DNA from: Aquimarina acroporae
GTDB taxonomy: Bacteria; Bacteroidota; Bacteroidia; Flavobacteriales; Flavobacteriaceae
Direction: 5' to 3'
Assembly: GCF_023195925.1 (NCBI RefSeq)
Contig: NZ_JALPRE010000012.1
Coordinates: forward strand, 124,001 to 188,000
Length of the DNA stretch: 64,000 bases
The position numbers were made by a program, and so were the translations under genes. Below the pieces are notes generated by a model. It ran no database searches and was not told the DNA's origin. It was given only the letters and a program-made list of their open reading frames with translations. This document shows positions 30,464-43,147 of the stretch, piece by piece (position 1 is the stretch's first letter; each line of letters begins with the position of its first letter).

Positions 30464-30889
30464 ATGATTGATGATATTGATGTTTCTATTTTAAAGCAAT
30501 TACAAAAAGATGCTCGACTTTCTTTTGCAGAAGTAGGACGAACAATTAAACTATCTGCTTCAGCGGTTAGAGAGCGAATACTAAAAATGGAAGATACCGG
30601 TGTAATTAAAAAATATGGTATCGAAATTGACCATTCTAAAGTTGGATATGATTTAGAAGCCTTTATTTTGGTAAAAGTATTTCATGGAAAATTAAAATTA
30701 CTGCTAAGTACAATACCTTCTATTTCGGAAATTGAAAAGGCTTATAGAATTACTGGTAATCAAAATATTCACTTAAAAGTGATATTAAAAAACCAACTTC
30801 ACTTACAACAATTAATTGACAAGTTGATGCCTTTTGGAGATACTCATACACTATTGATTTTGTCTGACGTTTCGTCAAATGATTCGTAA
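30464..30889 (+). CDS. Lrp/AsnC family transcriptional regulator
   Basis: This is a 141-residue regulator. The N-terminal AsnC-type helix-turn-helix is DVSILKQLQKDARLSFAEVGRTIKLSASAVRERI (residues 4-37, cited in part). The C-terminal RAM domain contains VGYDLEAFILVKV and AYRITGNQNIHLKV. It is slightly shorter than typical Lrp (about 150-165 residues). It is divergent from the ghrA-like and VOC genes. Its stop codon lies eight bases before the truncated attC-like site that ends the cassette array. Confidence 0.88.
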   Translation: MIDDIDVSILKQLQKDARLSFAEVGRTIKLSASAVRERILKMEDTGVIKKYGIEIDHSKVGYDLEAFILVKVFHGKLKLLLSTIPSISEIEKAYRITGNQNIHLKVILKNQLHLQQLIDKLMPFGDTHTLLILSDVSSNDS

Positions 30890-30896
30890 TTTTGCA

Positions 30897-30948
30897 TGTA
30901 TGAATCGTTGTGGCGTTTAGTCGCTATGATTTATACATCTTGTTACCC
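30897..30948 (-). other. truncated attC-like site at the array end
   Basis: TGTATGAATCGTTGTGGCG and a right arm CGCTATGATTTATACA with terminal TTGTTACCC closely match the intact site at 39146-39208. The outer AACG core that should precede the left arm is absent, so the site appears cut at its outer end, beside the Lrp gene. Confidence 0.65.
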
Positions 30949-30956
30949 ACAGTACT

Positions 30957-31703
30957 TTATCTTTCCCAATTTTGAAGTTGGTCGAGATAAAGATAGCTTT
31001 CAACAAATTCTCTATGTTCTAGACTTGTCATTTTCTCCAGTAGATTTAAGGCGGAAATATAACTGGCTAAATTTCCATTAGATGAGCTAAATTTTCCGTC
31101 TTCTACAAAAGCTACCAGACTGTCGTTTTGTACCTTTAAATTCGGATAGTCCTTTTGTAAGTTTTCTCCACCACCAATCCAAGTAACGATTTTATGTCCG
31201 TCTGCAATTCCTGATTTTCCGATTAGTTGAGCTCCTGCACAATTGCTTACCATATATTTCGTCTCTTGATTTTTGTTCCTAATGAATTCGATAATTTTTT
31301 TGTTGTTTACTTGTGCGTGCATATCATAGGCACTTGGCACGAACAAAGCTGTCAATTGTGGACAATTATCAAAAGAGTAATCGGGAACAAATTTCATTCC
31401 TTCTTCTGTTACAATTGGTTCATTGGTTTCCGCTATTGAGATGACATTAAAAAGCTGATTGCCATTCTGGTCCAATTTTGCAAAAACATCAGATGTAGCG
31501 ATTACTTCTCCTTGCAAAACACCGTTATACATCAATAGTCCGATTGTTGGAAGTTCTTTTTTGTATGGTCTAATGTGTTTATCTTGGATATCCGTTTCGT
31601 TTTTAGCTTGACTCGTATGCTCGTTTGTAAGATTAGGGTTTGATTTCTCTGATTGGCAACCGATAATTGTTAGAATTACCAATAGTTTAAGTGTTTTTTT
31701 CAT
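30957..31703 (-). CDS. DJ-1/PfpI family lipoprotein (cassette cargo)
   Basis: This is a 248-residue lipoprotein of the DJ-1/PfpI superfamily. The lipobox is LTIIGC (Cys16), followed by a polar linker to about residue 50. The domain begins PTIGLLMYNGVLQGEV and has the nucleophile elbow in MVSNCAGAQLIGKSG, with Cys as candidate nucleophile. EEGMKFVPDYSFDNCPQL precedes it. Members in the periplasm are often annotated as AraC-associated or isonitrile hydratase-like proteins, but no specific activity can be claimed. It shares one cassette with the Crp-like gene upstream, because no attC separates them. Confidence 0.83.
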   Translation of the reverse strand: MKKTLKLLVILTIIGCQSEKSNPNLTNEHTSQAKNETDIQDKHIRPYKKELPTIGLLMYNGVLQGEVIATSDVFAKLDQNGNQLFNVISIAETNEPIVTEEGMKFVPDYSFDNCPQLTALFVPSAYDMHAQVNNKKIIEFIRNKNQETKYMVSNCAGAQLIGKSGIADGHKIVTWIGGGENLQKDYPNLKVQNDSLVAFVEDGKFSSSNGNLASYISALNLLEKMTSLEHREFVESYLYLDQLQNWER

Positions 31704-31774
31704 ATTTAATCTGGTTTGGGGTAAAGGTCGATACTTTCTGAATGAAAAAACTTAATTAAGATTAAGAAATAGGT

Positions 31775-32347
31775 TTACTTTATTTTTGCTCTTATTTTAC
31801 TAACGAATTCTGGTGACATTCCCAAATACGAAGCAATCATATATTGAGGTACTCGTTGTGTAAACTCAGGATTTTCAGATATAAAAAGACGAAATTGTTC
31901 TTCACCTTTCAGGCTGTAGATATATTCGATTCTTTTTAGAATAGGTATATAGGTTCGTTCCATTACTTTTCTAAATAATCGCTCGGTCTGTGGCACTTTA
32001 TCACACAGTTCGTCAAATTTTTCTTGTGGCAGTTCGAGCAATTCTGTAGGCTCTATTGCTTGAATGTTTAGAGTAGTAGGTTTATTGGTAATCAAACTTT
32101 CATAGTCGGTAATCCACCAATTGTCAATTCCGAAATGTATAATCTGTTCGTTGCCTTTATTGTCAATATAAAACAAGCGAACACAGCCTTTTGTAATGAA
32201 AAATCTTGATTTGCAAAACTGACCGGCTTTTAGTAGAAATTCTTTTTTCTTTAATTTAATTGGTTTTAGGTAAGATTGAAAAAGGTTATTTTCTTTTTCT
32301 GAAAAAGTCACATATCTTTTTATATATTCAGTCAAATTTGGATTCAT
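31775..32347 (-). CDS. Crp/Fnr family transcriptional regulator (cassette cargo)
   Basis: This is a 190-residue regulator with an N-terminal cyclic nucleotide-binding fold (KEFLLKAGQFCKSRFFITKG, then IIHFGIDNWWITDYESL) and a short C-terminal DNA-binding region with RVPQYMIASYLGMSPEFVSKI. The size and these motifs match the short Crp/Fnr proteins common in Bacteroidetes, which usually lack the residues needed to bind cAMP. It is upstream of the DJ-1 gene by 71 bp on the same strand, and the two appear to form one cassette. It may regulate its cassette partner. Confidence 0.87.
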   Translation of the reverse strand: MNPNLTEYIKRYVTFSEKENNLFQSYLKPIKLKKKEFLLKAGQFCKSRFFITKGCVRLFYIDNKGNEQIIHFGIDNWWITDYESLITNKPTTLNIQAIEPTELLELPQEKFDELCDKVPQTERLFRKVMERTYIPILKRIEYIYSLKGEEQFRLFISENPEFTQRVPQYMIASYLGMSPEFVSKIRAKIK

Positions 32348-32383
32348 TCATTTTTTTATTTCGGTTTAGATTTTTGGTGTTGT

Positions 32384-32455
32384 GGGCAACGTTCCTTATA
32401 TGATATGTTCGCTTCCCGAAGGGAATATGACCATATGAAAATAAGTAGCAAACGT
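32384..32455 (-). other. attC-like site with degenerate right end
   Basis: The left core GGGCAAC (32384-32390) is followed by CGTTCCTTATATGATATG, with a central TTCCC-GAA-GGGAA hairpin and a right arm CATATGAAAATAAG. The expected GTTRRRY box at the right end is missing (AGTAGCAAACGTG instead), so the site may be inactive or recombined. Confidence 0.6.
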
Positions 32456-32458
32456 GTT

Positions 32459-33313
32459 TTATTTCCATTTAGTTCTTAACTCAGTTCCAATAGGATATTT
32501 ATCAGGGGTAAAATCAGGCATATAATATTTGCCATAACTACTATTTTTTAGAACCGAATCAATATCAATAAAAAACATATCATCCTTGGTGGTCATTGTT
32601 AGACGACTGTATACTCCATGGTCTTCTCCTTTATTCAATTCTATTTGCCACCAAAAATTTTCATGGTCTTCTTGGTCAATCACTTTTCTTAAACTTTTTA
32701 TTTTTGCTGTGATAGGTTCTTTTAGAAAGTATTTTTGCCATTTTTCGGGTATCTGACTTAAGTCAAATTGTGAGGTAATAGAATCTTTAGTTCCTTTAAC
32801 TAAATACCTTCCACTCGTTTTAGGTTCAAATCCAGAATTTAAATAATCTGCAAATCTTATATAATCATTTTCTTTTTCACTGCTCCAGACTGAATCATAA
32901 AAATCAGATAAAAGATATTTTTTATTTCCCCAAGTAACAATTTGGTATTCAGTTTTAATAGTAAGAGAGTCAATTCCGTACGGAACCTTAGTAGTAGTTG
33001 GTTCTGACTGCATATCCATAGGATATTGTATAAATTCCACTTTTTGAGGAATTAATATTAGTTTAATACTATCCAATTTATAAGTACCGAATACTTTCTT
33101 ACTTTCCCCACCACCAGTGCAACCAAATAAATAATTTTCGTTTACAAAAGTACCATCACTTAATAAATCAAGTTTAAGTCCATTATTGAATCCGCTATAA
33201 TGATAGCTTATGGTATCAATATTTTGTTCTGGAATATTTGTGTGATTCGATTTAGTTTTGGTGTTCGAACAACTAAGCGTTATAAGTATTAGTAGAAAGT
33301 TAATATATTTCAA
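32459..33313 (-). CDS. hypothetical lipoprotein (cassette cargo), probable TTG start
   Basis: This is a lipoprotein of about 284 residues and unknown function. With a TTG start at 33313 the leader reads MKYINFLLILITLSC, a perfect lipoprotein signal. The upstream in-frame ATG at 33382 lies inside the neighbouring attC site and would add 23 residues of site-encoded sequence. The body is beta-rich, with a GCTGGGESKKVFGTYKL segment and a C-terminal FTPDKYPIGTELRTKWK. I recognise no named domain. The gene ends three bases after the attC-like site at 32384, so it is a single-gene cassette. Confidence 0.72.
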   Translation of the reverse strand: MKYINFLLILITLSCSNTKTKSNHTNIPEQNIDTISYHYSGFNNGLKLDLLSDGTFVNENYLFGCTGGGESKKVFGTYKLDSIKLILIPQKVEFIQYPMDMQSEPTTTKVPYGIDSLTIKTEYQIVTWGNKKYLLSDFYDSVWSSEKENDYIRFADYLNSGFEPKTSGRYLVKGTKDSITSQFDLSQIPEKWQKYFLKEPITAKIKSLRKVIDQEDHENFWWQIELNKGEDHGVYSRLTMTTKDDMFFIDIDSVLKNSSYGKYYMPDFTPDKYPIGTELRTKWK

Positions 33314-33328
33314 TTTTTCAAGAGTGTT

Positions 33329-33422
33329 TGCTAATGATTTGTATAAAGTAAGTAGGGCAGGGAAAAGGTGTTGAGCTTTCATAGACCACTAAATGCCTTA
33401 TTTGTTATATACAGTGTTACCC
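33329..33422 (-). other. attC-like site
   Basis: The left core is GCTAATG (AAT instead of AAC) at 33330-33336 and the right core is GTTACCC at 33416-33422. Arms TGTATAAAGTAAGTAGGGC (33340-33358) and GCCTTATTTGTTATATACA (33395-33413) pair over 19 positions with a few mismatches. The stop codon of the EF-Tu-like gene lies inside this site. Confidence 0.72.
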
Positions 33423-34090
33423 GCCGCTGGCTTTTCTAATTTTTCATTCACGATATATTCAATCTTACCTTTTCCTATTATTGTCGCACCTTCCCTAAAT
33501 TCAAACTCCATTCCTTCTGCTAAAGTATTTGCAAAATGGTCAGGTGACAAAATTTTTATTTTCGCTTTTACATTCTCATCTGGATTTACTAATTCTTTAT
33601 TAATAAAAGTCAGTTGTCCAGAAGTCTGCATTTCGTCAAAATCAAATTTAACTTGTGGTCTATATCCAGATTTTGTAGGTGTTTTTCGCCCACCTTCTTC
33701 AGTCGTTAAATATCGAAGTTCGGCAATAAAGTCCACCTTGTTAAATTCTTTATTGTAATGATTGAGAATGTTGTTTAGGATTTTATCAAAGTCTGATTCG
33801 TTGCCAAACCTTGTTGAAATGTCTATTAGTTCAGCAATTGAGCTTCCTGCTTCTAAATTCCAAGCGTTTTGTCCGTTGAATTTATTCATATTTAATTTTT
33901 CAATGGTCAGTGGCGTTCCGAAAAAGGTTTTAAGTTCTCCTATAAATTCAACAATAAGAGTTTGATTCATGGTTGGCCAATCGTTCATTGCATTTAAAAA
34001 CAATGTTGTAATGTCTTTTACCTTGTGTTCTTTTGTGTCAAGGTCAACTAAACTCCAAAGAGTGTCATATGTTTCTATTTTGTTGTCCAC
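33398..34090 (-). CDS. protein with C-terminal EF-Tu domain 3-like region (cassette cargo)
   Basis: This is a 230-residue protein that starts with GTG at 34090. The N-terminal part (1-115) is soluble and unrecognised. Residues about 125-220 resemble the third beta-barrel domain of elongation factor Tu: FIAELRYLTTEEGGRKTP, SGYRPQVKFDF, TSGQLTF, then EFEFREGATIIGKGKI, equivalent to the EF-Tu iREG-rtiG-G motif. No GTPase domain is present. The last residues and the stop codon are encoded by the attC site that ends the cassette. Such a free EF-Tu barrel might interact with tRNA or ribosomal partners, which is speculative. Confidence 0.78.
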   Translation of the reverse strand: MDNKIETYDTLWSLVDLDTKEHKVKDITTLFLNAMNDWPTMNQTLIVEFIGELKTFFGTPLTIEKLNMNKFNGQNAWNLEAGSSIAELIDISTRFGNESDFDKILNNILNHYNKEFNKVDFIAELRYLTTEEGGRKTPTKSGYRPQVKFDFDEMQTSGQLTFINKELVNPDENVKAKIKILSPDHFANTLAEGMEFEFREGATIIGKGKIEYIVNEKLEKPAAGNTVYNK

Positions 34091-34111
34091 TTAGTTTTTT
34101 TGGTGCTCGTA

Positions 34112-34178
34112 GGTAATGTTTAATGTATAGTGTGTTTGCTTCCCAAAGGGAATAAGACTTCATACATTAGTGTTAGGT
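34112..34178 (-). other. attC-like site
   Basis: The left core is GGTAATG (AAT form) at 34112-34118 and the right core is GTTAGGT at 34172-34178. Arms AATGTAT (34122-34128) and ATACATT (34162-34168) pair, and the centre TTCCC-AAA-GGGAA matches the centres of other sites in the array. Confidence 0.72.
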
Positions 34179-34190
34179 ACTGTTTTCTTA

Positions 34191-34781
34191 TTAATTATTT
34201 GTTTTAACTCCCTTGATGTAAAATTCTTCTTTTTCTAATTGTCCATTTTCAAGAAATTTTAATTGCCTTCCATGTAATTCATCATCTTGAAAATTTCTAA
34301 TTCTGATAAGAGTTCCGTTATCATTCCAATCTTTCCATTCTCCATTTCGAACAGAAGATTGGAAGTTTAGATAATCTTTATATTTATGTTGATATTCTAA
34401 TACCAATATTCCTTTTTTATTCCAGTATCTTTCATATCCATTTTGTTCGCCATCTAGGAATTCATATTCACTTTGTTTACCTCCGTTAAAGTAAAATTGA
34501 GTTGATTTTCCATTTAGCTTACCATTTTTTACTTCAAATATACTGGCAACTTTAGAACTGTCTTCTTCAAAAAAACTTATCCATTTTCCGTCTTTTGCGA
34601 ATTTACCATCTCGACTTAACAAATCAGTTGGAAACTTGAACGGAGTATTGTTCAAGGAATCTACAGATTCATATTTCCAATAATTCTCATCGTTATATGT
34701 AGTTTGTTTTATTTGACTTTTTTGAGCGCTCAAATAAAAACTTGAAAACACAATTGATATTATTATTAATATTTCCCTCAT
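34191..34781 (-). CDS. exported MORN-like repeat protein, YwqK antitoxin family (cassette cargo)
   Basis: This is a 196-residue protein with a signal peptide (MREILIIISIVFSSFYLSAQ). Its body has at least four MORN_2-type repeats of about 22-24 residues: NGKLNGKSTQFYFNGGKQ, DGEQNGYERYWNKKGILV, RNGEWKDWNDNGTLIRIR and DDELHGRQLKFLENGQL. Proteins of this pattern are often named YwqK family antitoxins, although the export signal here makes an antitoxin role doubtful. No toxin gene is in the same cassette. The function is unknown. Confidence 0.78.
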   Translation of the reverse strand: MREILIIISIVFSSFYLSAQKSQIKQTTYNDENYWKYESVDSLNNTPFKFPTDLLSRDGKFAKDGKWISFFEEDSSKVASIFEVKNGKLNGKSTQFYFNGGKQSEYEFLDGEQNGYERYWNKKGILVLEYQHKYKDYLNFQSSVRNGEWKDWNDNGTLIRIRNFQDDELHGRQLKFLENGQLEKEEFYIKGVKTNN

Positions 34782-34794
34782 TTGATTTTATAGT

Positions 34795-34862
34795 ACCTAA
34801 CGTCCCTTGTATGGTGCGTTTACATCCCTCAAGGAACATACGTACTATACAAATTGTTGTAA
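34795..34862 (-). other. attC-like site
   Basis: Left core ACCTAAC (34795-34801) followed by GTC, right core GTTGTAA (34856-34862). Arms TTGTATGGTGCG and CGTACTATACAA pair around a short central hairpin. It is nearly the same in both arms as the site at 40274. It contains the stop codon of the GNAT gene. Confidence 0.78.
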
Positions 34863-35312
34863 GTTGGCTTTATTTTTTTTACAAAGCAGTAATACCTTCT
34901 TTCCATAATTACTTTCAGAATTACACCATTCCAGCTTTCTAATTATTTTTTCAGGAACTTTTATACTGTTATAAATTTTAAATCCAAATTTTGAGTAAAA
35001 ATTCAATAAATTTTCAAATGGTAGGCACCAAATATTAGATTCCCCAAATGGTTTCTTTTCACATAAATTCTGAACTATGTTTTCAGCAACTCCTAAACCT
35101 CTAAAATTGGGAAAGGTATAAATTCCTCCAAGTTCTGCATTATTGTCATCAATTTTCACCAATCTACCAAGTCCAGCATTTTCATTTTCAACTTTAGCAA
35201 TAACAATATATTCATTTTCATAATTAGATTCAACAAAATCAATTTCATTGTATTTTGCGTTTATCCAATCTAACTCATGTTTTTCAGCATGTTTTATAGT
35301 TACTGTTTTCAT
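34845..35312 (-). CDS. GNAT family N-acetyltransferase (cassette cargo)
   Basis: This is a 155-residue acetyltransferase. The acetyl-CoA motif A is IYTFPNFRGLGVAENIVQNL and motif B is FYSKFGFK. The substrate is not predictable. The C-terminal residues LQQFV and the stop codon are encoded inside the attC site at 34795-34862, a common situation for integron cassette genes. GNAT proteins are frequent cargo of integron arrays. It is the only gene of its cassette. Confidence 0.88.
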   Translation of the reverse strand: MKTVTIKHAEKHELDWINAKYNEIDFVESNYENEYIVIAKVENENAGLGRLVKIDDNNAELGGIYTFPNFRGLGVAENIVQNLCEKKPFGESNIWCLPFENLLNFYSKFGFKIYNSIKVPEKIIRKLEWCNSESNYGKKVLLLCKKNKANLQQFV

Positions 35313-35338
35313 ATTTACATCTCCTTTGATCAGCTTAT

Positions 35339-35535
35339 ACGCAACGTCTCAGTGCATGAAACGTAGCGTGCAAAAAGGTACTAACTTTTCGAATTAACAC
35401 AGAGCCGAATTTTTATATTTTGTTTTTAATTTTTCTATTCTAAAAGCCAAATTTAAAAATTTGGCGGTTTTTGCAAATAAACACAAACCTTTCGGTTTAG
35501 TACTTATTAGCTATGTTGTATACACCGTGTTACAG
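35339..35535 (-). other. long attC-like site (197 bp)
   Basis: Left core ACGCAAC (35339-35345) with GTC, right core GTTACAG (35529-35535). The inner arms include GGTACTAACTTTTCG and CGGTTTAGTACTTATTAGC, with CCAAATTTAAAAATTTGG as a central palindrome. It resembles the long sites at 37991 and 41019. Confidence 0.68.
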
Positions 35536-35549
35536 CCAGTTTTTATTTA

Positions 35550-36764
35550 CTAATTCAATTGTAAAGCAACATCCCATAAGTCAAAATCTCCACTATAATA
35601 TTTCAGTGAATTGCCACAGTGAACGATTACAGTTTCTTTTTGGGGGATAATGTAAATATTCTGTCCTAGGTTCCCATTTGCATAGTAATGAAAAGAACCA
35701 TCTTTATTTACGTGACCCCACCATTGGTAATTATAATAAATTCTTTTCTCACTTCTTCCAAACCATTTTGGGTATATATCTCTAGGAATTGATTTGTTTT
35801 CTCTAGTTGATTCAAGAACCCAATCCTTTGATATGATCTGATCGCCATTCCAATTTCCTTCTTTTAGCATTAACTGACCGAAACGTGCATAATCAATAGC
35901 TCGGGCAATCAAACGACTTGGCATATATTCAAAATTTGATTCTTCGCTGTCTATAGAAAAAAGTGCATCATACTCCATTATTTCTGACCACAATTTCTGC
36001 TCTAAATAATTGGATACAGTTAATTTAGTAGCTCTTTCAAGAATTAATCCCAGATAGCTTGTATTGTAATTAGAATATTGAAAAATTTTCCCCGGTTCAG
36101 AAGAAACCTTTACATTCTCAAGTAGTAGCTTTCGAACATTAGGGTGGTAGTAACCAACCGCTTCATCATGCCAAGGAGAATGAATGTTAGTGAAGGGTAT
36201 ATGACTGGTATTGTACTCAAGTCCAGAACGCATTTCGAGTAAATTTTTGATAGTTATTTTTTTAAAGCGTTCATCACGCTCTAAAAGTTCAGGGATGTAA
36301 TTTGTTATAGGGTCATCTATACTTTTAATTAGACCATCATCAATAGCAGTTCCTATTAAAAATGATATAAAAGATTTTGCTACAGATTGAGAATGAAAAT
36401 AGGAATCTCTACTAAAACCATTAAAGTATTTCTCATAAATGATTGTATCTTTTTGTATAACAATAAGTGCAGTAGTTTGAGACTGAATGGCCCACTCATC
36501 AAAACTATTAAATCCAGTTTTAGTTACTAGTTCCTCAAATAGTGACTCAACATACTTCTCTTTAGGCTGAGAAATGAATGTATTGGTACTCTTCGCTCCC
36601 TGAATCTCGTGATTTTCAAAGTTCTTATAATCATAAACATCTGCGACATTCATTGTTATAAGTCGATAAACATAGGTAGGTGTATATTGAATGGAAAGAA
36701 GTACTAAGAGGAATAGGACTAATGAAAGTATTGTAAGAAATATAATTTTTAGTTTTTTTCTCAT
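35550..36764 (-). CDS. serine hydrolase of the class C beta-lactamase family (cassette cargo)
   Basis: This is a 404-residue membrane-anchored hydrolase. An uncleaved or cleaved N-terminal hydrophobic helix spans residues 5-28. The beta-lactamase-type active site is visible: S127-V-A-K130 in FHSQSVAKSFISF and Y230-S-N in FQYSNYNTSYLG. The third motif is probably VIVHCGNS near the C-terminus, and a WWGHVNKDGS segment precedes it. Enzymes of this family are mostly esterases or peptidases, and beta-lactam hydrolysis cannot be assumed. It is a single-gene cassette. Confidence 0.87.
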   Translation of the reverse strand: MRKKLKIIFLTILSLVLFLLVLLSIQYTPTYVYRLITMNVADVYDYKNFENHEIQGAKSTNTFISQPKEKYVESLFEELVTKTGFNSFDEWAIQSQTTALIVIQKDTIIYEKYFNGFSRDSYFHSQSVAKSFISFLIGTAIDDGLIKSIDDPITNYIPELLERDERFKKITIKNLLEMRSGLEYNTSHIPFTNIHSPWHDEAVGYYHPNVRKLLLENVKVSSEPGKIFQYSNYNTSYLGLILERATKLTVSNYLEQKLWSEIMEYDALFSIDSEESNFEYMPSRLIARAIDYARFGQLMLKEGNWNGDQIISKDWVLESTRENKSIPRDIYPKWFGRSEKRIYYNYQWWGHVNKDGSFHYYANGNLGQNIYIIPQKETVIVHCGNSLKYYSGDFDLWDVALQLN

Positions 36765-36803
36765 TTAAGTTTTTTACTATTTATAAAGTATTTAGGGTAT
36801 TGC

Positions 36804-36936
36804 CTATAACGGTTAGTGTATGAGTAGTAGCGCATTTATACTCAACTAACTTTTCAGTTTAGTACAGACCCTTGTTTTTATAGTTATACTTTCCCTTCAT
36901 CACTTAAACCGCTATTACTTATACACATTGTTAGCA
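36804..36936 (-). other. attC-like site
   Basis: Left core CTATAAC (36804-36810) and right core GTTAGCA (36930-36936). The arms GTGTATGAGTAGTAGCG (36816-36832) and CGCTATTACTTATACAC (36910-36926) pair over 17 positions with few mismatches. This is one of the clearest sites. Confidence 0.8.
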
Positions 36937-36957
36937 ACTGGTTATGATTTTTCGTTG

Positions 36958-37374
36958 TTATATTGTTCGATTAACAACGGGTTTAATGATGCGAACTATT
37001 GAGTATCCAATTATTAGACCGACAATAGAAAATATCACATCATTTTTGTCAAACACATTGTTTCCTCCTAGGTTGTGAATTTTAAATTCTTGAGTGAGCA
37101 CATATATTCCAGCCAAAATTAATGCTACTGCATATACTAACTTCGTTCCAATTTGTTTGTCGGGACTAAACACTTTAATATTTAAATAAAGTCCTAATCC
37201 GGTCAAAATCAAAACTCCAATAATTCCTTCAAAGAAATTGGGTAACGATAAAAGAGTAATTTTTATCCATTCGGAGTAGTTTCCTTCTATGATAGAAGGT
37301 CTAATAAATTTGAAAAAAATGAAAAGCACGATAAGAACAATTTGTATTCGCGCTAATTTTAGAATATCATTCAT
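36958..37374 (-). CDS. hypothetical membrane protein, four helices (cassette cargo)
   Basis: This is a 138-residue protein with four predicted transmembrane helices (near 10-25, 43-65, 77-95 and 115-132). Landmarks are LPNFFEGIIGVLILTGLGLYL and DVIFSIVGLIIGYSIVRII. I recognise no named family. It is the only gene between two attC-like sites. Membrane proteins of this size are typical integron cassette cargo. Confidence 0.7.
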   Translation of the reverse strand: MNDILKLARIQIVLIVLFIFFKFIRPSIIEGNYSEWIKITLLSLPNFFEGIIGVLILTGLGLYLNIKVFSPDKQIGTKLVYAVALILAGIYVLTQEFKIHNLGGNNVFDKNDVIFSIVGLIIGYSIVRIIKPVVNRTI

Positions 37375-37384
37375 TTTTTCTTGT

Positions 37385-37517
37385 TGCTAATGGTTGGTAT
37401 AAGAATAGTTGCGGGTTTGCGTGCGAGGATTTTCCGAAGGAAAATCAGACGTAGTAAACTTGCAACTACCTTTAGTTAAGCCCAGAATTGAGCAATTATT
37501 TTTATACATTGTTGTAA
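37385..37517 (-). other. attC-like site
   Basis: The left core is TGCTAAT (AAT form) at 37385-37391 and the right core is GTTGTAA at 37511-37517. Arms GTATAAGAATAGTTGC (37397-37412) and GCAATTATTTTTATAC (37492-37507) pair, with an inner GGATTTTCC-GAA-GGAAAATC hairpin. It contains the stop codon of the next gene. Confidence 0.77.
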
Positions 37518-37984
37518 ACAGTTATTTTTTCCGCAATGTATTTCTCAATTTGTTCTTTATCTGTTTTGTTTTTTAATATTAATAATTCGTTGTTTTTATG
37601 TGTCCGATAATTCATTAAGAATTTAGTTTTTCCACTTCGAGTCAATTCCGAGTATTCAAATCGGTTTGGGTCAAACTTATCGCTTATCAATTCCGTTTTT
37701 TGAGTTCGGTCAAGAATTTTCTTCAGTCGGATTATTTTTCCGCTTTTCTCGTCTATTTTTAATTCTGAGTAGTAAATCCAAGAGGCAAATCGATAAATTG
37801 TGTATCCGATTAAAGTCAAAATCGCAACAAAAATTCCGATTCCAATTCCGAGAAACCAAATCAGAAATATGAATGAAGTAGAAGTCCAAATCAATAGTTC
37901 TGTCCAGTTAAATGGAATTCTATCGCTCAACGTGTGAACGTGTCCATTTTTGGAAATTCTAAAGTAGTCTTCGCGTTCGTTCAT
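37502..37984 (-). CDS. hypothetical membrane protein, two helices (cassette cargo)
   Basis: This is a 160-residue protein with two adjacent transmembrane helices (about 27-47 and 48-68, WTELLIWTSTSFIFLIWFLG then GIFVAILTLIGYTIYRF). The C-terminal part is cytoplasmic and PH-like in residue pattern (YYSELKIDEKSGKIIRLKK). No family is recognised. Its last residues, YNNV, and the stop are encoded inside the attC site at 37385-37517. Confidence 0.7.
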   Translation of the reverse strand: MNEREDYFRISKNGHVHTLSDRIPFNWTELLIWTSTSFIFLIWFLGIGIGIFVAILTLIGYTIYRFASWIYYSELKIDEKSGKIIRLKKILDRTQKTELISDKFDPNRFEYSELTRSGKTKFLMNYRTHKNNELLILKNKTDKEQIEKYIAEKITVYNNV

Positions 37985-37990
37985 AATTGT

Positions 37991-38184
37991 TTACAACGTC
38001 TCGTATAAGAAACGTGGGGCGGTTGATAAGCGATACGTTTCGGATTGGTAATAAGCCAAATATAATATTTTGCTTTTATCTTTTTTGTTGAAAATGCCAA
38101 ATTTTATATTTGGCGACTTTGTAAAGAAAGACAGACTTTCAAGTTTAGCCTAAACCGCCCTATGTTTTTTATACCTTGTTGTAT
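37991..38184 (-). other. long attC-like site (194 bp)
   Basis: Left core TTACAAC (37991-37997) with GTC, right core GTTGTAT (38178-38184). The arms begin GTATAAGAAACGTGGGGCGG at 38003 and end AACCGCCCTATGTTTTTTAT at 38153-38172. A central GCCAAATATAATAT / ATATTTGGC pairing resembles that of the site at 35339. Confidence 0.75.
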
Positions 38185-38190
38185 GGCGTT

Positions 38191-38538
38191 TTACTTATTC
38201 TTCAATTCTATTTTCCGTCCGTCTAAATCTTGAATAACTGCTATTATTCCCCATTCAGTTTTTTTAATATCAGATTTTATTATCCAGTCAGTTCCTCTTA
38301 ATCTATCAATAACAGAACTTAAATTAGATATGTCAAACCCTAGCCTAAGATTTCCATCCGCTTTTGTCATTGATTTGGTCAAAGGATAAATCTCGAAAAC
38401 AAATCCATTGTACTCACAGGCATAATGATAGGGACCTTTTCCGTGTTGATGATAATCAAATTTAAAACCAATTTTCTCATATTGAGTTTTTAAAAGTTCT
38501 GGATTACTCGTTCTTATTACAAGAAGGTTAAGGTTCAT
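38191..38538 (-). CDS. VOC family protein (cassette cargo)
   Basis: This is a 115-residue glyoxalase-fold protein. It begins LNLLVIRTSNPELLKTQYEKIG, has HYACEYNGFVFEIYPL at the first repeat end, and finishes with AVIQDLDGRKIELKNK. His, Glu and Glu at these positions are candidate metal ligands. The substrate is unknown. It follows a membrane protein gene by only 20 bp without an attC between them, so this cassette seems to carry two genes. Confidence 0.82.
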   Translation of the reverse strand: MNLNLLVIRTSNPELLKTQYEKIGFKFDYHQHGKGPYHYACEYNGFVFEIYPLTKSMTKADGNLRLGFDISNLSSVIDRLRGTDWIIKSDIKKTEWGIIAVIQDLDGRKIELKNK

Positions 38539-38558
38539 TTTAAATATCAGTTTATTAT

Positions 38559-39125
38559 TTAAGTAATTATTTTTCTTTTTTGTCTCAAGCTATAAATAAT
38601 TCCAATTATTAGTCCTATTAGTCCACCTAAATAACTGAAATTATGCATTGAACCAACCATAATAAAGCTATCAAAATCATTTAAGTGCTCAGGTAAATTC
38701 CAATTGGGTCGATTGTCTGTCAAAAATGATTTTCCATATACAAGTCCAGTAATCCCTGTTATTAGAGCAATTACTATTGTTAGAAGAAATGCTTTCATTG
38801 TCGTTTTAAACATCATTTTTCCATTCTTGTGTATCAGCCCAACGAATCCTAGAATTACTCCTATAATCATTCCAACCCACCAAGTAGCTAAAGTTCCGAC
38901 AATACTTGCTCCAAATCGTGGGTTATCTAATATAATTTCAGGTTTTTCTGTTGTTCCTATGTTTTGTCCTAACCCCCAATTCTCTAGTCCGAATTGAATG
39001 AATTTAAATTTTGAATAATATTCTTCAGAGATTGAATAAGTAATCTGGTCGTGTAAAATTCCATAAACTCCGCCTAAAATTGGTGCAATTATTAGAATCA
39101 ATATTAGAGCTGTAAATTTATTCAA
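38559..39125 (-). CDS. hypothetical membrane protein, four helices (cassette cargo)
   Basis: This is a 188-residue membrane protein with helices near 5-25, 80-100, 113-135 and 155-180. Features are IIGVILGFVGLIHKNGKMM and YLGGLIGLIIGIIYSLRQKRK. The N-terminal loop after the first helix is soluble (YSISEEYYSKFKFIQFGLENW). No family is recognised. It shares its cassette with the VOC gene downstream. Confidence 0.7.
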   Translation of the reverse strand: MNKFTALILILIIAPILGGVYGILHDQITYSISEEYYSKFKFIQFGLENWGLGQNIGTTEKPEIILDNPRFGASIVGTLATWWVGMIIGVILGFVGLIHKNGKMMFKTTMKAFLLTIVIALITGITGLVYGKSFLTDNRPNWNLPEHLNDFDSFIMVGSMHNFSYLGGLIGLIIGIIYSLRQKRKIIT

Positions 39126-39145
39126 AGAGTTTGTTTTTTAATGAC

Positions 39146-39208
39146 ATACAACGTCGGGTGTATGAATCGTTATGGCGAAGCCACTATGATTTATACACCT
39201 TGTTAGCG
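39146..39208 (-). other. short attC-like site (63 bp)
   Basis: Left core ATACAAC (39146-39152) with GTC, right core GTTAGCG (39202-39208). The arms GTGTATGAATCGTTATGGCG and CCACTATGATTTATACAC pair almost completely around GAAG. It closely resembles the truncated site at 30897. Confidence 0.8.
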
Positions 39209-39215
39209 GTTTTTT

Positions 39216-40172
39216 TTACAATTTTATTAATTCGTCAGTTGTTTCATCATAAATCAGCGTACTAGGTTTAGGTTGCCAACCTTCCTCGTTAGAATTATAG
39301 GAAAAATAAATAGAATATTTATAACCTCCGAGGTGTTCTAACTTGTATGGCCGATAATTCAATTCAGCGTTATTAATGGTCCATTTTTTTGATATAATTT
39401 CTGGTCTTCTACCATATGTTTTGTTTACAGTGTAAAAGTCAGAAATTGAAGTAAAAACAAAGGTGCAATTCCCAACTTTTTTGAAGTCATAAAGCTCCTC
39501 AAATTCTTTTACAATTCTCTCTTTACCATAGACATCCCTATCAATAATTAAATATTTATCATTTTGCCAATAGTATGTATAACCAAATTTAAAATCTTTA
39601 TCTGGTCTTTCAATTCTAGTAGACATTATAGATTTTATTTCTTGACTTGTTGACTCTTCAACTGATTGCTTAATTTTCATCATATCTATTGTTTGAATTT
39701 TCCATTGGCAATAGTTCTCATTATATACAATGTAATTTTGATTAGATTTAATTTCAGGTAAGTTTTGGATCGCGTACTCCACAAGTTTTAATGTTGTTTC
39801 TGCATTAAATTTTCTCGAAACTTGTCGAATTACGATTGATTTGTTTCTTAAAAGTGATTTTTGGTCAGTCGAACCATTCCAAGTATATTCAATAGCTCCT
39901 TTGTCATAGGAAATAAAATAATCTGATTCACATTCGCCAGTATAATGATGATTAAAATCTAGAAAGATTTGATCTTTATATCCTAGTTCAATAGCTAATT
40001 TTTCAGCCAATTGTCCATAAATAAAAACTTTATTAATTTCCTCGTATTGATATCCTGTTTTAATTCTGACTTTGATATTCCCATAGTCTTTAATCATCCA
40101 GAAATCTTGATGAGCAAAAGTGTTTTGTATAGAAAATATAATAATTATGGATAGAAGTGTTTTTTTCATCAT
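39216..40172 (-). CDS. secreted hypothetical protein (cassette cargo)
   Basis: This is a 318-residue protein with a signal peptide (MMKKTLLSIIIIFSIQNTFA). The mature part is rich in aromatic and charged residues and beta-like in pattern (FKFGYTYYWQNDKYLIIDRD, then YKLEHLGGYKYSIYFSYN). I recognise no domain. It is the only gene between two attC-like sites. A second ATG three bases later is an equally good start. Confidence 0.68.
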   Translation of the reverse strand: MMKKTLLSIIIIFSIQNTFAHQDFWMIKDYGNIKVRIKTGYQYEEINKVFIYGQLAEKLAIELGYKDQIFLDFNHHYTGECESDYFISYDKGAIEYTWNGSTDQKSLLRNKSIVIRQVSRKFNAETTLKLVEYAIQNLPEIKSNQNYIVYNENYCQWKIQTIDMMKIKQSVEESTSQEIKSIMSTRIERPDKDFKFGYTYYWQNDKYLIIDRDVYGKERIVKEFEELYDFKKVGNCTFVFTSISDFYTVNKTYGRRPEIISKKWTINNAELNYRPYKLEHLGGYKYSIYFSYNSNEEGWQPKPSTLIYDETTDELIKL

Positions 40173-40273
40173 TTAAACTTTCAAATTTTCACGAAACTAC
40201 ATTAAACTTCTTCTGAAGAAAATCTATATTAAGTGAAATGATCATTTGAATTAGTAAGAGTATTTTTTATTAC

Positions 40274-40341
40274 CCCTAACGTCTCTTGTATGGTGCGTTT
40301 GCTTCCCGAAGGGAGCAAATGAACTATACAAATTGTTATGC
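40274..40341 (-). other. attC-like site
   Basis: Left core CCCTAAC (40274-40280) with GTC, right core GTTATGC (40335-40341). The arms CTTGTATGGTGCGTTTGC and GAACTATACAAATTG pair around TTCCC-GAA-GGGA. Outer arms match the site at 34795 almost base for base. Confidence 0.8.
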
Positions 40342-40346
40342 TTTTT

Positions 40347-40568
40347 TTAATAATTTCCAATTCTCCAATTTAGGTCAATTTCTTCTAAATCCACATCTGG
40401 GTATTGAAATTCGGATTTTATAGTTTGCAAGTCAATTTCTCTTTTTTGAGGGTCTATTATTAACCATAAAGTTTCGTCAATTTTATTAAGATTTTCGTTT
40501 ATAGTTTTCTTTAATTCGCTTTGAAGATACTTACTGTAAATCAATCCTACAGCAAAACCTTCGTCCAT
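40347..40568 (-). CDS. 3' part of a frameshifted hypothetical gene (cassette cargo)
   Basis: This is a 73-residue frame that starts MDEGFAVGLIYSKYLQ and ends DLNWRIGNY. It overlaps the end of the upstream frame by 22 bp. Read in this frame, the sequence just before its ATG gives KIAYPWGG, which continues smoothly from the upstream protein. It therefore looks like the C-terminal third of one original protein of about 220 residues. The function is unknown. Confidence 0.6.
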   Translation of the reverse strand: MDEGFAVGLIYSKYLQSELKKTINENLNKIDETLWLIIDPQKREIDLQTIKSEFQYPDVDLEEIDLNWRIGNY

Positions 40569-41008
40569 ACCTCCCCATGGATAAGCAATTTTAATATTTC
40601 TTGTCTAAAGTTCATAAGGTCATTAAACATCCATCCAATATGAATTGGTCTATTCATTCTACTTTCAGGGGGATTTTTATATAACTCTTTTATTTTGTCG
40701 AAAGCACATGTAATTAATTCTTTATTTACATCATATTCTCGATCATTTAGAAATTCTCCTTGCTCAAAATATTGTATATCAGATAATTTATTTAAATGTT
40801 GGGAACGATTTAATTCTTTTTTTCTTCCTGACAGGAAGTATTTCATCTGCACCAAAGGATTCATATGTTTTTTAGAAAGACCAAAAGCATCTAACAATGA
40901 GTTTAGTTGCTGTCGTCTAATAATACTGGGTTTTTCATTTAATCTGTCCGAGTTTGACCACAAATATTTATAATCAAGATATTTATAAAGTAAATCTTTC
41001 CCAGTCAT
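40547..41008 (-). CDS. 5' part of a frameshifted hypothetical gene (cassette cargo)
   Basis: This is a 153-residue soluble protein, beginning MTGKDLLYKYLDYKYLWSN, with no recognised domain. One extra base in the A-run at 40589-40592 (minus-strand AAAA) would join it in frame to the 73-residue product downstream, replacing the present C-terminus LLIHGEVWTKVLL. The pair may be a pseudogene, a sequencing error or, less likely, a programmed shift. No canonical slippery heptamer is present. Confidence 0.6.
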   Translation of the reverse strand: MTGKDLLYKYLDYKYLWSNSDRLNEKPSIIRRQQLNSLLDAFGLSKKHMNPLVQMKYFLSGRKKELNRSQHLNKLSDIQYFEQGEFLNDREYDVNKELITCAFDKIKELYKNPPESRMNRPIHIGWMFNDLMNFRQEILKLLIHGEVWTKVLL

Positions 41009-41018
41009 TTTTCATTAA

Positions 41019-41187
41019 GCATAACGTTTAATATATGTATCGTAGCAGAACAAAATGTTACCTTACGTTTTGATTTTTCTGCGCATTGATTGCTAATTTT
41101 TCCATTCTGAGAGCATTGCGCCTTCATAAATATAGAACAACCCACCGATTAATTACTTTGCTGCTATGATCATATATTGTGTTAGCA
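41019..41187 (-). other. long attC-like site (169 bp)
   Basis: Left core GCATAAC (41019-41025), right core GTTAGCA (41181-41187). The arms TATATGTATCGTAGCAG and CTGCTATGATCATATA pair. Central palindromic segments include GAGAGCATTGCGCCTTC and GCGCATTGATTGC. Its outer layout matches the other sites. Confidence 0.75.
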
Positions 41188-41194
41188 ATAGTTT

Positions 41195-41590
41195 TTATTT
41201 TTTCAGTTCAATTTTAATCTTGCGATTCCTTTCGGATTTAGAGTTTCCAAACCCACTCGCTTCTAGAGTCAATTTATTTGGATTCAGCTTGGTAATTTTG
41301 AGTGGTATTCCATAATCACTGTAAATTAGAATTAAATCATTCTTTTCCAGTTCATAGTAATATGATTCACTTAAAGTATCTTTTAAATAGAAGTCTAATT
41401 TCCCGTTTTCAGTAATTCTTAGTTTTGAGTGTTTGTCCAATTTAGCATCATCATAATTTGTTATATAAAGTGGATATTCACTCAAAGAAGTTACGTTCCA
41501 CTCTCCAATTAATTCTTCTTTCTTATGATAACAACTTAAAGTTATGGTAGAAAATAGAGATAATAATATCAAATTTTGGAGTTTACTCAT
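41195..41590 (-). CDS. hypothetical lipoprotein, lipocalin-like (cassette cargo)
   Basis: This is a 131-residue lipoprotein with the lipobox TITLSC (Cys20). The mature part begins ELIGEWNVTSL, the G-x-W start common in lipocalin-like proteins, and continues as a small beta-barrel pattern ending in RNRKIKIELKK. It is the cassette closest to mnmE, that is, the first in the direction of transcription. The function is unknown. Confidence 0.7.
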   Translation of the reverse strand: MSKLQNLILLSLFSTITLSCYHKKEELIGEWNVTSLSEYPLYITNYDDAKLDKHSKLRITENGKLDFYLKDTLSESYYYELEKNDLILIYSDYGIPLKITKLNPNKLTLEASGFGNSKSERNRKIKIELKK

Positions 41591-41601
41591 TATAGTATTA
41601 T

Positions 41602-41660
41602 TGCTAATAAGTGTATATAATTACTAAAGGTAACTATATTTCTTATATATGGTGTTGTAA
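41602..41660 (-). other. attC- or attI-like site at the mnmE side of the array
   Basis: The left core is TGCTAAT (AAT form) at 41602-41608 and the right core is GTTGTAA at 41654-41660. TATATAA and TTATATA pair, but the arms are short and weak. Because it lies upstream of the first cassette gene it could be a remnant attI or the attC of a lost cassette. Confidence 0.5.
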
Positions 41661-41670
41661 CTGTTTGTAA

Positions 41671-41705
41671 CTAATTTTAAGTGTTTACAAACACTTAAAA
41701 ATTAG
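41671..41705 (-). terminator. probable mnmE terminator (bidirectional hairpin)
   Basis: AAGTGTTT and AAACACTT flank AC, and the stem extends to CTAATTTT and AAAATTAG with one unpaired base. On the minus strand a U-rich run lies within the outer stem. It is 51 bp after the mnmE stop codon and separates mnmE from the cassette array. Confidence 0.6.
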
Positions 41706-41755: not shown

Positions 41756-43147
41756 TTACTTCCCGATACAGAAATTTGCAAAAATATTACCTAATAAATC
41801 ATCACTAGAAATCTCGCCTGTAATCTCACCAAAATGATATAGAGCCTGTCGAATATCTATAGCCATTAAGTCACCAGATAGTCCTGAGTCTAGCCCATAT
41901 TGAACTTTTTGTATTTCCTCAAGAGCTTTCAAAAGTGCATCGTAATGTCTGGTATTGGTCACAATAGTTTCGTTATTACGAAGTGCACCTGTGTTTACAA
42001 AATCTAAGAGTTTGTTTTGTAATTCTTCAACACCCAAACCAGATTTTGCAGATAACAAATGAATATTTTCAATTTCTGAAACCATATGATCAATCTCGTT
42101 CTGCTCAAGTTTGTCTACTTTATTCGCAACAATTACCAAAGGTTTTTGTGGGTACTTATTCTTGATTTTTCCAATTTCAGTCTTTAAGTCTTTTAGACTA
42201 TCTGGGGTAAGTAATGAGCTATCGACCAAATAAATCACCACCTTTGCCTGCTCTATTTTTTCAAAGGTTTTTTGTATCCCGATACTTTCAACTACGTCTT
42301 TGGTGTCTCGTATACCAGCGGTATCTATAAATCTAAACCCTATACCTCCAATAGTAATTTCATCTTCAATCGTATCTCTAGTTGTTCCTGCTATATCAGA
42401 AACAATAGCTCTTTCTTCATTGAGTAGGGCATTAAGAAGTGTAGATTTTCCAACATTGGGTTCTCCTACAATAGCTACCGGAATCCCATTTTTAATCACA
42501 TTTCCTACAGCAAACGAATCTATCAGACGTTTTAAAACATTGGTAATTCTAGCTATGAGTTCTTTAAATTGGGTTCTATCGGCAAATTCAACATCTTCTT
42601 CTGCAAAGTCGAGTTCTAACTCTATAAGAGAGGCGAAGTTAAGAAGTTCGTCTCTTAGTTTTTTAATCTCATTAGAGAATCCTCCTCGCATTTGTTGCAT
42701 GGCAATTTGGTGCGAAGCCTCAGAGTCTGAAGCAATCAAATCGGCAACGGCCTCTGCTTGTGACAGGTCTAGTTTTCCATTTAAAAAAGCTCGTAATGTA
42801 AATTCTCCGGCATCTGCCATTCGGCATCCTTTACGAAGTAAAAGTTGAATGATTTCTTGTTGAATATACGTAGACCCATGACACGAAATTTCTATAGTGG
42901 GTTCTCCGGTATAGGAGTTGCTCCCTTTAAAAATAGAAACCAATACTTCATCTAGTACACGTTCTTCATCTATGATATGACCTAAATGAATGGTATGACT
43001 TTTTTGTTTCTTTAATTCTTTCCCGCTTATAGACCTAAAAAGAGGAGAGCAAATAGTAATAGCGTCTTTTCCTGAAACGCGTATCACTGCAATAGCACCC
43101 GCTCCAGAGGGTGTCGCCAATGCTACTATGGTATCTTGTGAAATCAT
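41756..43147 (-). CDS. mnmE: tRNA uridine-5-carboxymethylaminomethyl modification GTPase MnmE
   Basis: This 463-residue enzyme works with MnmG to modify U34 of certain tRNAs. The N-terminal tetrahydrofolate domain begins DTIVALATPSGAGAIAVIRVSG, cited here in part. The G domain has GEPNVGKSTLLNAL (G1), DIAGTTRDTIEDE (G2), DTAGIRDT (G3) and NKVDKLE (G4). The protein ends with the diagnostic C-terminal FCIGK, whose Cys is required for activity. Length is standard. It is the chromosomal anchor at one side of the cassette array. Confidence 0.97.
   Translation of the reverse strand: MISQDTIVALATPSGAGAIAVIRVSGKDAITICSPLFRSISGKELKKQKSHTIHLGHIIDEERVLDEVLVSIFKGSNSYTGEPTIEISCHGSTYIQQEIIQLLLRKGCRMADAGEFTLRAFLNGKLDLSQAEAVADLIASDSEASHQIAMQQMRGGFSNEIKKLRDELLNFASLIELELDFAEEDVEFADRTQFKELIARITNVLKRLIDSFAVGNVIKNGIPVAIVGEPNVGKSTLLNALLNEERAIVSDIAGTTRDTIEDEITIGGIGFRFIDTAGIRDTKDVVESIGIQKTFEKIEQAKVVIYLVDSSLLTPDSLKDLKTEIGKIKNKYPQKPLVIVANKVDKLEQNEIDHMVSEIENIHLLSAKSGLGVEELQNKLLDFVNTGALRNNETIVTNTRHYDALLKALEEIQKVQYGLDSGLSGDLMAIDIRQALYHFGEITGEISSDDLLGNIFANFCIGK

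Follow-up and report, generated by a model that had tools for sequence, protein, structure and literature searches.

The stretch analysed here (the window) comprises 64,000 nucleotides of the Aquimarina acroporae genome, positions 124001-188000 of contig C4 in a 5.18-Mb draft of 53 contigs. Between mnmE and an Lrp/AsnC regulator gene it holds an interval filled with minus-strand genes of unrelated families, which are punctuated by palindromes resembling the attC recombination sites of integrons. The G+C content of this region is 0.310, compared with 0.351 in the remainder of the window, and an Rfam scan of the window gave no match. An earlier note on this DNA, made from the letters alone, had described thirteen palindromic sites lying directly 3' of single genes or gene pairs, and had read the region as a cluster of attC sites lacking an integron integrase (CALIN). 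All 13 sites were found again, within 30886-41666; in the gene (minus) orientation, R''...R', each lies immediately 3' of one gene or gene pair, site 1 following mnmE, and they bound 12 units, cassettes c1-c12 (Table 1). The cassette genes proved as unrelated as the note had said, with serine hydrolase, GNAT, MORN, EF-Tu domain 3, Crp-type and DJ-1 products, weakly lipocalin-like and weakly VanZ-like ones, and several that belong to no family. From the evidence below, we consider it highly probable that the region is a 12-cassette CALIN of a Bacteroidota integron-like system, whose own integrase has been lost.

In the usual site, two complementary arms of ~15 bases flank a centre; 2-5 bases separate AAC from the first arm, and 3-7 bases separate the second arm from GTT (or ATT). 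The outer AAC is retained in 12 of the 13 sites and GTT in eight, with ATT in its place at sites 1, 6, 10, 11 and 13; the AAC-to-GTT length is 46-184 bases. Across all arrays these lengths form clusters (~40-60, 110-129 and 180-189 bases) and no continuum, in a count that includes both-strand duplicates. The likeness that the earlier note had seen between the outer arms at 34795 and 40274, and between those at 30897 and 39146, is borne out by close alignment within each pair, but its RYYYAAC / GTTRRRY cores are not, as each fits one of the 13 R'' and R' boxes, respectively. A larger collection gave 353 distinct site places, of which 20 with a spacer difference <2 were left out of strand counts, leaving 333 strand-resolved sites at 75 loci; two of these with cut ends were left out of core counts. 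The canonical 7-mers occur in 14 and 18 of the remaining 331 sites and both together in three.

A covariance model was built from eight sites. At E<=1 it touched 10 of the 13 sites on the expected strand, three of them only partly, and it also matched two sites on the opposite strand. Full-length matches to sites outside the training set were obtained at 37385-37517 (E 2.1e-10), 33329-33422 (E 5.1e-4) and 34111-34178 (E 0.041); the absence of such matches, which the earlier note had named as a refutation, was thus not what was found. A site finder based on motif-plus-stem scoring and tuned to this site type gave scores >=21 for eight window sites. Ten mononucleotide shuffles of the region reached no more than 19, and the window outside the array, searched on both strands, no more than 20.5. 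Scores up to 25 were seen on the array's opposite strand, as expected of palindromes. Sites 11, 2 and 10 scored 20.5, 17 and 15, and sites 1 and 12 were uncalled; site 1 has a weak stem, and its R' (ATTAGCAATA) fits the R'' of site 2. An earlier stem finder without sequence weights had been dropped as too noisy.

Integron cassettes are circular, and closing the circle brings both ends of the unit together into one site; for such cassettes, outer-box pairing is expected between the R' preceding a gene and the R'' following it, and not between the two boxes of a site. The results showed that the ends of the 12 window units share 80 of 132 complementary bases (11 bases beyond GTT), compared with 42.0 ± 5.6 for shuffled partners, a level reached in none of 200,000 partner shuffles, while the two boxes of the same site (n=13) gave 48 matches against 45.9 by chance. 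In 10 of the 12 units the own partner was unbeaten by any other. The same relation was seen on a large scale, where 106 of 179 neighbouring units matched at >=7 of 9 bases (mean 6.15 versus 2.97 ± 0.11 after shuffling), compared with 9 of 331 pairs within a site and 5 of 187 pairs taken across an intervening site. Judged by these pairings, the ends of the units match as they would in circles closed at GTT.

Matches to the array DNA were also sought across the genus, in a set of 52 genomes that includes the window's own. Cassette c5 (window 37997-37388) is identical at 610 of 610 positions in one congener, G566; between the same two genomes mnmE is 79% identical and the neighbouring cassette c7 86%. 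The identity starts at the G of GTT and stops within the ATTA of site 6, so that both breaks fall at predicted crossover points. In G566, c7 directly follows c5, so that c6 as a whole is present in one genome and cleanly absent from this place in the other. The sequence that immediately precedes c5 in G566 (dyad ATATGTGTACCGGTACACATAT, ACAATT and GTTG) has the form of an attI site. These data indicate that at least one cassette has passed between species. Relatives of c7 occur in at least seven congeners (among the matches listed), in G558 near mnmE and inverted, and the stretches fetched around them contain no further window cassette except c5 in G566 and distant Crp homologues. Cassette c2 recurs in an array of G534, its proteins being 94 and 96% identical, and a stretch of G559 carries a 70% identical relative of the second open reading frame (ORF) of c4 without the first. 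Conserved gene order, which the earlier note had held to speak against moving cassettes, is not seen, as no conserved array lies behind mnmE across 20 congeners.

The sites further show a strand asymmetry. With the strand of each site set by spacer asymmetry, independent of pairing, 236 of the 333 sites carry A·C at stem position 7 when read on the gene strand, equivalent to T·G on the other strand, and two carry the reverse wobble. Position 12 is A·C or, in two sites, C·A in 274 of the 333, and the reverse wobble does not occur there. These counts are partly circular because the finder consensus favours A·C at both positions. Elsewhere in the stem the bias has the same direction and is milder (174 versus 64). 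Among the scored window sites, 8 of 8 and 7 of 8 have the wobble at positions 7 and 12. The bottom strand is predicted to fold more stably in 96 of 117 sampled sites and in 10 of the 13 window sites. According to the available text of PMC8946536, the bottom strand of a classical attC site is selected through imperfections, extrahelical bases among them; unlike such sites, those of Bacteroidota appear to use G·T wobble pairs. In a crude test for extrahelical bases, allowing the stem a bulge of one base made it better in 16 of 325 sites for the 5' arm and in 39 for the 3' arm.

These results bear on a reading in which the palindromes are transcription terminators, repetitive extragenic palindromic (REP) elements or repeats like miniature inverted-repeat transposable elements (MITE), and the genes are not mobile as units. 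Such elements would likewise be intergenic, and the long sites 2, 5 and 8 do recur often across the genus as repeats ~78-91% identical among the matches listed. Yet the complementarity joins the ends of a gene unit, not the ends of one palindrome; the wobble bias marks the strand opposite the gene strand; and a whole unit is common to two species, with breaks inside the palindromes. We regard this reading as refuted for the array as a whole and leave it practically no probability, although the single degenerate sites 1, 10, 11 and 12 could be something else.

Table 1 Features of the cassette array, its flanks and the zinc-finger gene of related loci (window positions unless a locus is given)
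Feature	Position	Strand	Description
mnmE	41756..43147	(-)	chromosomal flank of array
possible attI relic	41671..41702	(-)	dyad ATTTTTAAGTGTTTGTAAACACTTAAAATT, then A + GTT, ~54 nucleotides after mnmE; dyad score 11
site 1	41597..41666	(-)	AAC ends 41654, ATT at 41608; first cassette junction after mnmE
cassette c1	41026..41608	(-)	lipoprotein-like, weakly lipocalin-like (below Pfam cut-off)
site 2, attC-like	41019..41187	(-)	partial covariance-model match; congener repeat copies, among matches listed, 78-87% identical
cassette c2	40281..41025	(-)	two ORFs, no known family
site 3, attC-like	40274..40341	(-)	covariance model and finder
cassette c3	39153..40280	(-)	exported-looking protein, no family
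site 4, attC-like	39146..39208	(-)	covariance model and finder
cassette c4	37998..39152	(-)	membrane protein and VOC-like ORF (our label; without Pfam match)
site 5, attC-like	37991..38184	(-)	partial model match and finder; congener copies, among matches listed, 81-91% identical
cassette c5	37392..37997	(-)	160-amino-acid membrane protein
site 6, attC-like	37382..37517	(-)	model match outside training set; finder
cassette c6	36811..37391	(-)	membrane protein, weakly VanZ-like
site 7, attC-like	36804..36936	(-)	finder; unmatched by covariance model
cassette c7	35346..36810	(-)	serine hydrolase (Pfam Beta-lactamase family)
site 8, attC-like	35339..35535	(-)	partial model match and finder; many congener copies, among matches listed 80-91% identical
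cassette c8	34802..35345	(-)	GNAT acetyltransferase
site 9, attC-like	34795..34862	(-)	covariance model and finder
cassette c9	34118..34801	(-)	MORN-repeat protein, exported-looking
site 10, attC-like, degenerate	34104..34178	(-)	covariance model, unit-end complementarity
cassette c10	33336..34117	(-)	protein with EF-Tu domain 3
site 11, attC-like, degenerate	33325..33422	(-)	covariance model and finder
cassette c11	32391..33335	(-)	no family
site 12, attC-like, degenerate R''	32384..32455	(-)	unit-end complementarity; called by neither finder nor model
cassette c12	30891..32390	(-)	cyclic-nucleotide-binding (cNMP, Crp-type) protein and DJ-1/PfpI protein
site 13, attC-like	30886..30948	(-)	last site, adjoins Lrp/AsnC gene; covariance model and finder
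Lrp/AsnC regulator gene	30464..30889	(+)	chromosomal flank, other array end
zinc-finger gene	L085:17949-18338; also L092, L093, L094, L096, L098, L099, L102, L109, L112, L269, L273, L277, L278, L279	divergent	upstream of recombinase

A recombinase that could act on such sites was found in relatives. Proteins of ~375 amino acids that score below the threshold of the IntI model TIGR02249 head arrays of the same sites there. We collected 46 recombinase loci from the family, order, genus and phylum, of which 41 have >=1 kb beyond the gene and five with <1 kb were left out. Same-strand sites lie 3' of the recombinase in 35 of the 41, or in 31 of 36 without the five loci fetched for a known site (L085, L100, L105, L269 and L273). 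Sites behind recombinases number 149, versus 14 elsewhere in the same loci, a comparison that is not fair by area because little upstream sequence was fetched for L281-L300. The array of G291 has 22 sites across 18.5 kb.

A scan of named genomes with alignment A4 returned at least 80 loci, of which 80 were kept and L119, from an unclassified bacterium, was left out of the comparison. Same-strand 3' sites were seen in 17 of the 29 named Bacteroidota loci with room; the site-bearing genomes include Winogradskyella, Seonamhaeicola, Flavobacterium aciduliphilum, Algibacter, Algoriphagus, Aquiflexum, Rufibacter and Alkalitalea. None of the 43 homologue loci from other phyla (39 with room, four true IntI) has such sites, zeros that are silent on classical attC because the finder is tuned to the present site type; elsewhere in these 43 loci the finder calls six sites in five loci. 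Relatives of the recombinase at E<=1e-45 occur in 90 of 296 Bacteroidota genomes and 60 of 140 genera. Flanks were fetched for 20 of these, taken from the matches listed and mostly top ones outside the family; 16 have >=1 kb of room, and 14 of the 16 have sites behind the gene. The sites themselves were sought with model R1 (E<=0.001) and found in 61 of 149 family genomes, for each of which 34 candidates were scored, a lower bound because R1 overlooks long-centred sites, as well as in two of six named array-bearing genomes and none of 13 non-Bacteroidota genomes, one of which reached 0.008.

In the window's own genome, PF00589 finds XerC, XerD and one 419-amino-acid transposon-type recombinase, and nothing else. 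Mobile elements exploiting Xer exist, and host XerC/XerD might move the units at dif-like sites. We hold this to be very improbable, as a separate recombinase heads the array in most related loci with room and the sites are long folded palindromes, unlike dif, which measures 28 bp. The reading that the integrase has been lost fits the distribution of the gene within the genus. It is present at >=55% identity in 37 of the 52 genomes, some copies being broken or cut by contig ends. The 15 genomes that lack it, three of which are <90% complete, include G566 and that of the window; the window array is therefore best read as left after loss. Copies with internal stop codons or fragments, as expected of repeated loss, were seen in G528, G533, G553 and G568. 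A recombinase gene is present downstream of mnmE in 4 of 20 congeners (L212, L213, L217 and L225), and the stretch behind mnmE may be an insertion hotspot.

The array-heading recombinase differs from the integrases of classical integrons. The proteins tested scored 206-216 bits with TIGR02249 (L085, 211; L097, 216), below the cut-off of 265, and when the L085 protein was aligned with IntI4 (2a3v), residues 13-181 and 242-317 were aligned and 182-241 were skipped, with 18 query residues there; the protein lacks the IntI patch. The XerA model NF040815 gave 218.4 bits for L085, 221.7 for L097 and 212.2 for L118, around its curated cut-off of 220. The closest solved structures are archaeal XerA-type proteins (4a8e, 5hxy) and IntI4, and a predicted structure of a Maribacter recombinase (predicted local distance difference test, pLDDT, 85; predicted template modelling score, pTM, 0.56) likewise has XerA (5hxy) and IntI4 as its best structural matches. 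The 375-amino-acid form, the commonest flavobacterial type, carries ~105 additional N-terminal residues to which no Pfam family matches. A tree of 79 recombinases places the four IntI in a single clade (support 100/99), separate from the array-heading proteins. The latter fall into several lineages with an unresolved backbone (six changes, three forced), so that neither a single nor a multiple origin can be claimed.

These properties speak against an ordinary CALIN, made of cassettes from a classical integron whose patch-bearing IntI has been lost or lies elsewhere. The layout R''-L''-L'-R', the gene or gene pair per unit, the shared orientation and the circularity of the units would all suit it. 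On the other side, the R boxes are rarely canonical (see the counts above), the sites co-locate with a different recombinase, and TIGR02249 exceeds its cut-off in no genome among the 395 scanned from the order, the window's included, yet gives 369-443 bits on four true IntI of Chloroflexota, Planctomycetota and Pseudoalteromonas. The top TIGR02249 match in the order (147.5 bits, L004) was rejected as an integron integrase; a transposase-like gene stands behind the recombinase, and we take the locus to be IS91-like. Because of the non-canonical cores, the lack of any IntI above cut-off in the 395 genomes and the different recombinase at the sites in relatives, we judge a classical CALIN distinctly unlikely. 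The CALIN of the earlier note thus stands as an integrase-less cassette array, at least one of whose cassettes has moved between species, with 13 sites and such an integrase neither nearby nor found in the genome. It is probably not the remnant of a classical IntI integron, as its sites depart from canonical attC and the integrase it is missing is of another kind than IntI. The patch-bearing intI that the note had proposed to look for did not turn up above cut-off, and its alternative, the use of another recombinase, fits the patchless enzyme that heads the same sites in relatives.

A candidate insertion site accompanies this enzyme. In many loci the stop codon of the recombinase is followed by an attI-like pattern, namely a dyad, 2-6 bases (often CCAATT or part of it) and GTT. 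A candidate was seen in 22 of 29 loci, and the dyad score was >=8 in 13 of 29, a level reached by 0.5% of shuffles; the 13 strong dyads have arms of 10-13 bases, ungapped in eight. The bases after the GTT match the R'' of the first site at 5.6 of 9 positions (n=22), compared with 3.0 ± 0.33 after shuffling. In this reading, the system in relatives consists of a patchless XerA/IntI-like tyrosine recombinase, an attI-like site, and a co-directional array of one- or two-gene cassettes with attC-like palindromes. In the window, the dyad and GTT behind mnmE are a possible relic attI (Table 1). Among 20 congeners, which have other sequences there, the best dyad <=170 nucleotides behind mnmE scores 4-9 in 18, is lacking in one and scores 14 in one (L210); AT-rich dyads behind mnmE therefore arise by chance.

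Two kinds of genes were observed beside the recombinase. In 15 of 25 loci, the recombinase start has a divergent zinc-finger gene, encoding ~125 amino acids, at a distance of 32-104 nucleotides (Table 1). The L085 protein is weakly DUF2116-like, below the Pfam cut-off, and a partner or regulator of the recombinase is a possible role for it. Two other loci have a gene for a single-strand DNA-binding protein (SSB) as the divergent neighbour of the array recombinase (L087:5090-5431 and L103:11039-11371). Both neighbours would suit a system that handles single strands. A zinc-finger paralogue in the window genome was rejected as a marker of the lost integrase because it is away from any site in its 3.2-kb locus. 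The same genome contains further sites of the window type at C1:492-510 kb, C23:250-253 kb, C23:824-833 kb and C34:1.1 kb, and the stretches fetched round them (L033-L037) gave no recombinase match; the window array is one of several cassette arrays in this genome.

From these data, a mechanism can be proposed. The recombinase would bind the folded bottom strand of each site, the two conserved G·T wobble pairs marking that strand, and would cleave within the AAC/GTT core. Cassettes would be excised as circles and then inserted at attI. With the recombinase gene lost from the window genome, the array would be frozen, or mobile only with a recombinase supplied from outside.

Several observations weigh against this reading. 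What may be read from the DNA itself is the units, their boundaries, one whole shared unit, the linkage to a recombinase and the attI-like site; we infer catalysis by the array-heading recombinase from gene position, and recombination itself is likewise inferred. Six of the 41 related loci with room show no same-strand site behind the recombinase, L105 having six sites elsewhere; in some positive loci (L153 and L297) the nearest site is ~9 kb away; and 12 of the 29 named Bacteroidota loci with room show none. The attI candidate is absent in 7 of the 29 loci and low-scoring in nine more, two of the 12 window units fit a foreign partner better, and the counts at stem positions 7 and 12 have the circularity noted above. 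The window genome is a 53-contig draft, and the recombinase could sit in a gap. Finally, both sharers of c5 are without a recombinase today, so the transfer may predate the loss or have used another route.

Integrons with IntI, such as class 1, the Vibrio superintegron and archaeal ones, share with this system cassettes of a gene and a palindromic site in one orientation, a tyrosine recombinase with an attI-like site beside the first cassette (here in relatives), AAC/GTT crossover triplets, a bottom strand that is predicted to fold better, and circular cassettes as judged by end complementarity. Unlike theirs, the Bacteroidota recombinase is without the IntI patch and below the TIGR02249 cut-off, its 375-amino-acid type has an additional N-terminal domain, and the R boxes of the sites are not RYYYAAC/GTTRRRY. 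The recombinase gene runs in the same direction as the cassettes; in most IntI integrons, intI is opposite to them. Messier and Roy reportedly found in 2001 that the additional domain of IntI is necessary for activity. The nearest structures and the NF040815 scores bring the enzyme near XerA and other "integron-like" simple tyrosine recombinases; unlike XerA, which serves in chromosome dimer resolution (PMC8138268, available part), it heads a cassette array. In the accessible portions of published surveys, IntI was chosen by its additional domain (PMC2426708, PMC9668308), and those of a study of taxon-specific attC models list 11 taxa, Bacteroidetes not among them (PMC8352920). The Natural History of Integrons, in its consulted sections, counts Bacteroidota among the integron-bearing phyla without detail (PMC8618304). 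No description of this system was found in the open-access literature as far as its texts were available, subscription papers and preprints being outside the search.

Overall, these results indicate that the system probably works like an integron and that the lack of the IntI patch and of canonical cores sets it outside the classical kind. With some reserve, we favour the view that Bacteroidota have an integron class of their own, phylum-wide, in which patchless XerA-like recombinases use folded single-strand sites of a second design, with two G·T wobble pairs replacing extrahelical bases, non-canonical cores and a dyad attI, and which would be either a sister line or an independent invention. 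If the system does act in the proposed way, a major phylum contains a large pool of cassettes that has so far escaped notice, and the roles of the IntI patch and of extrahelical bases would become testable by comparing two solutions to the same problem.

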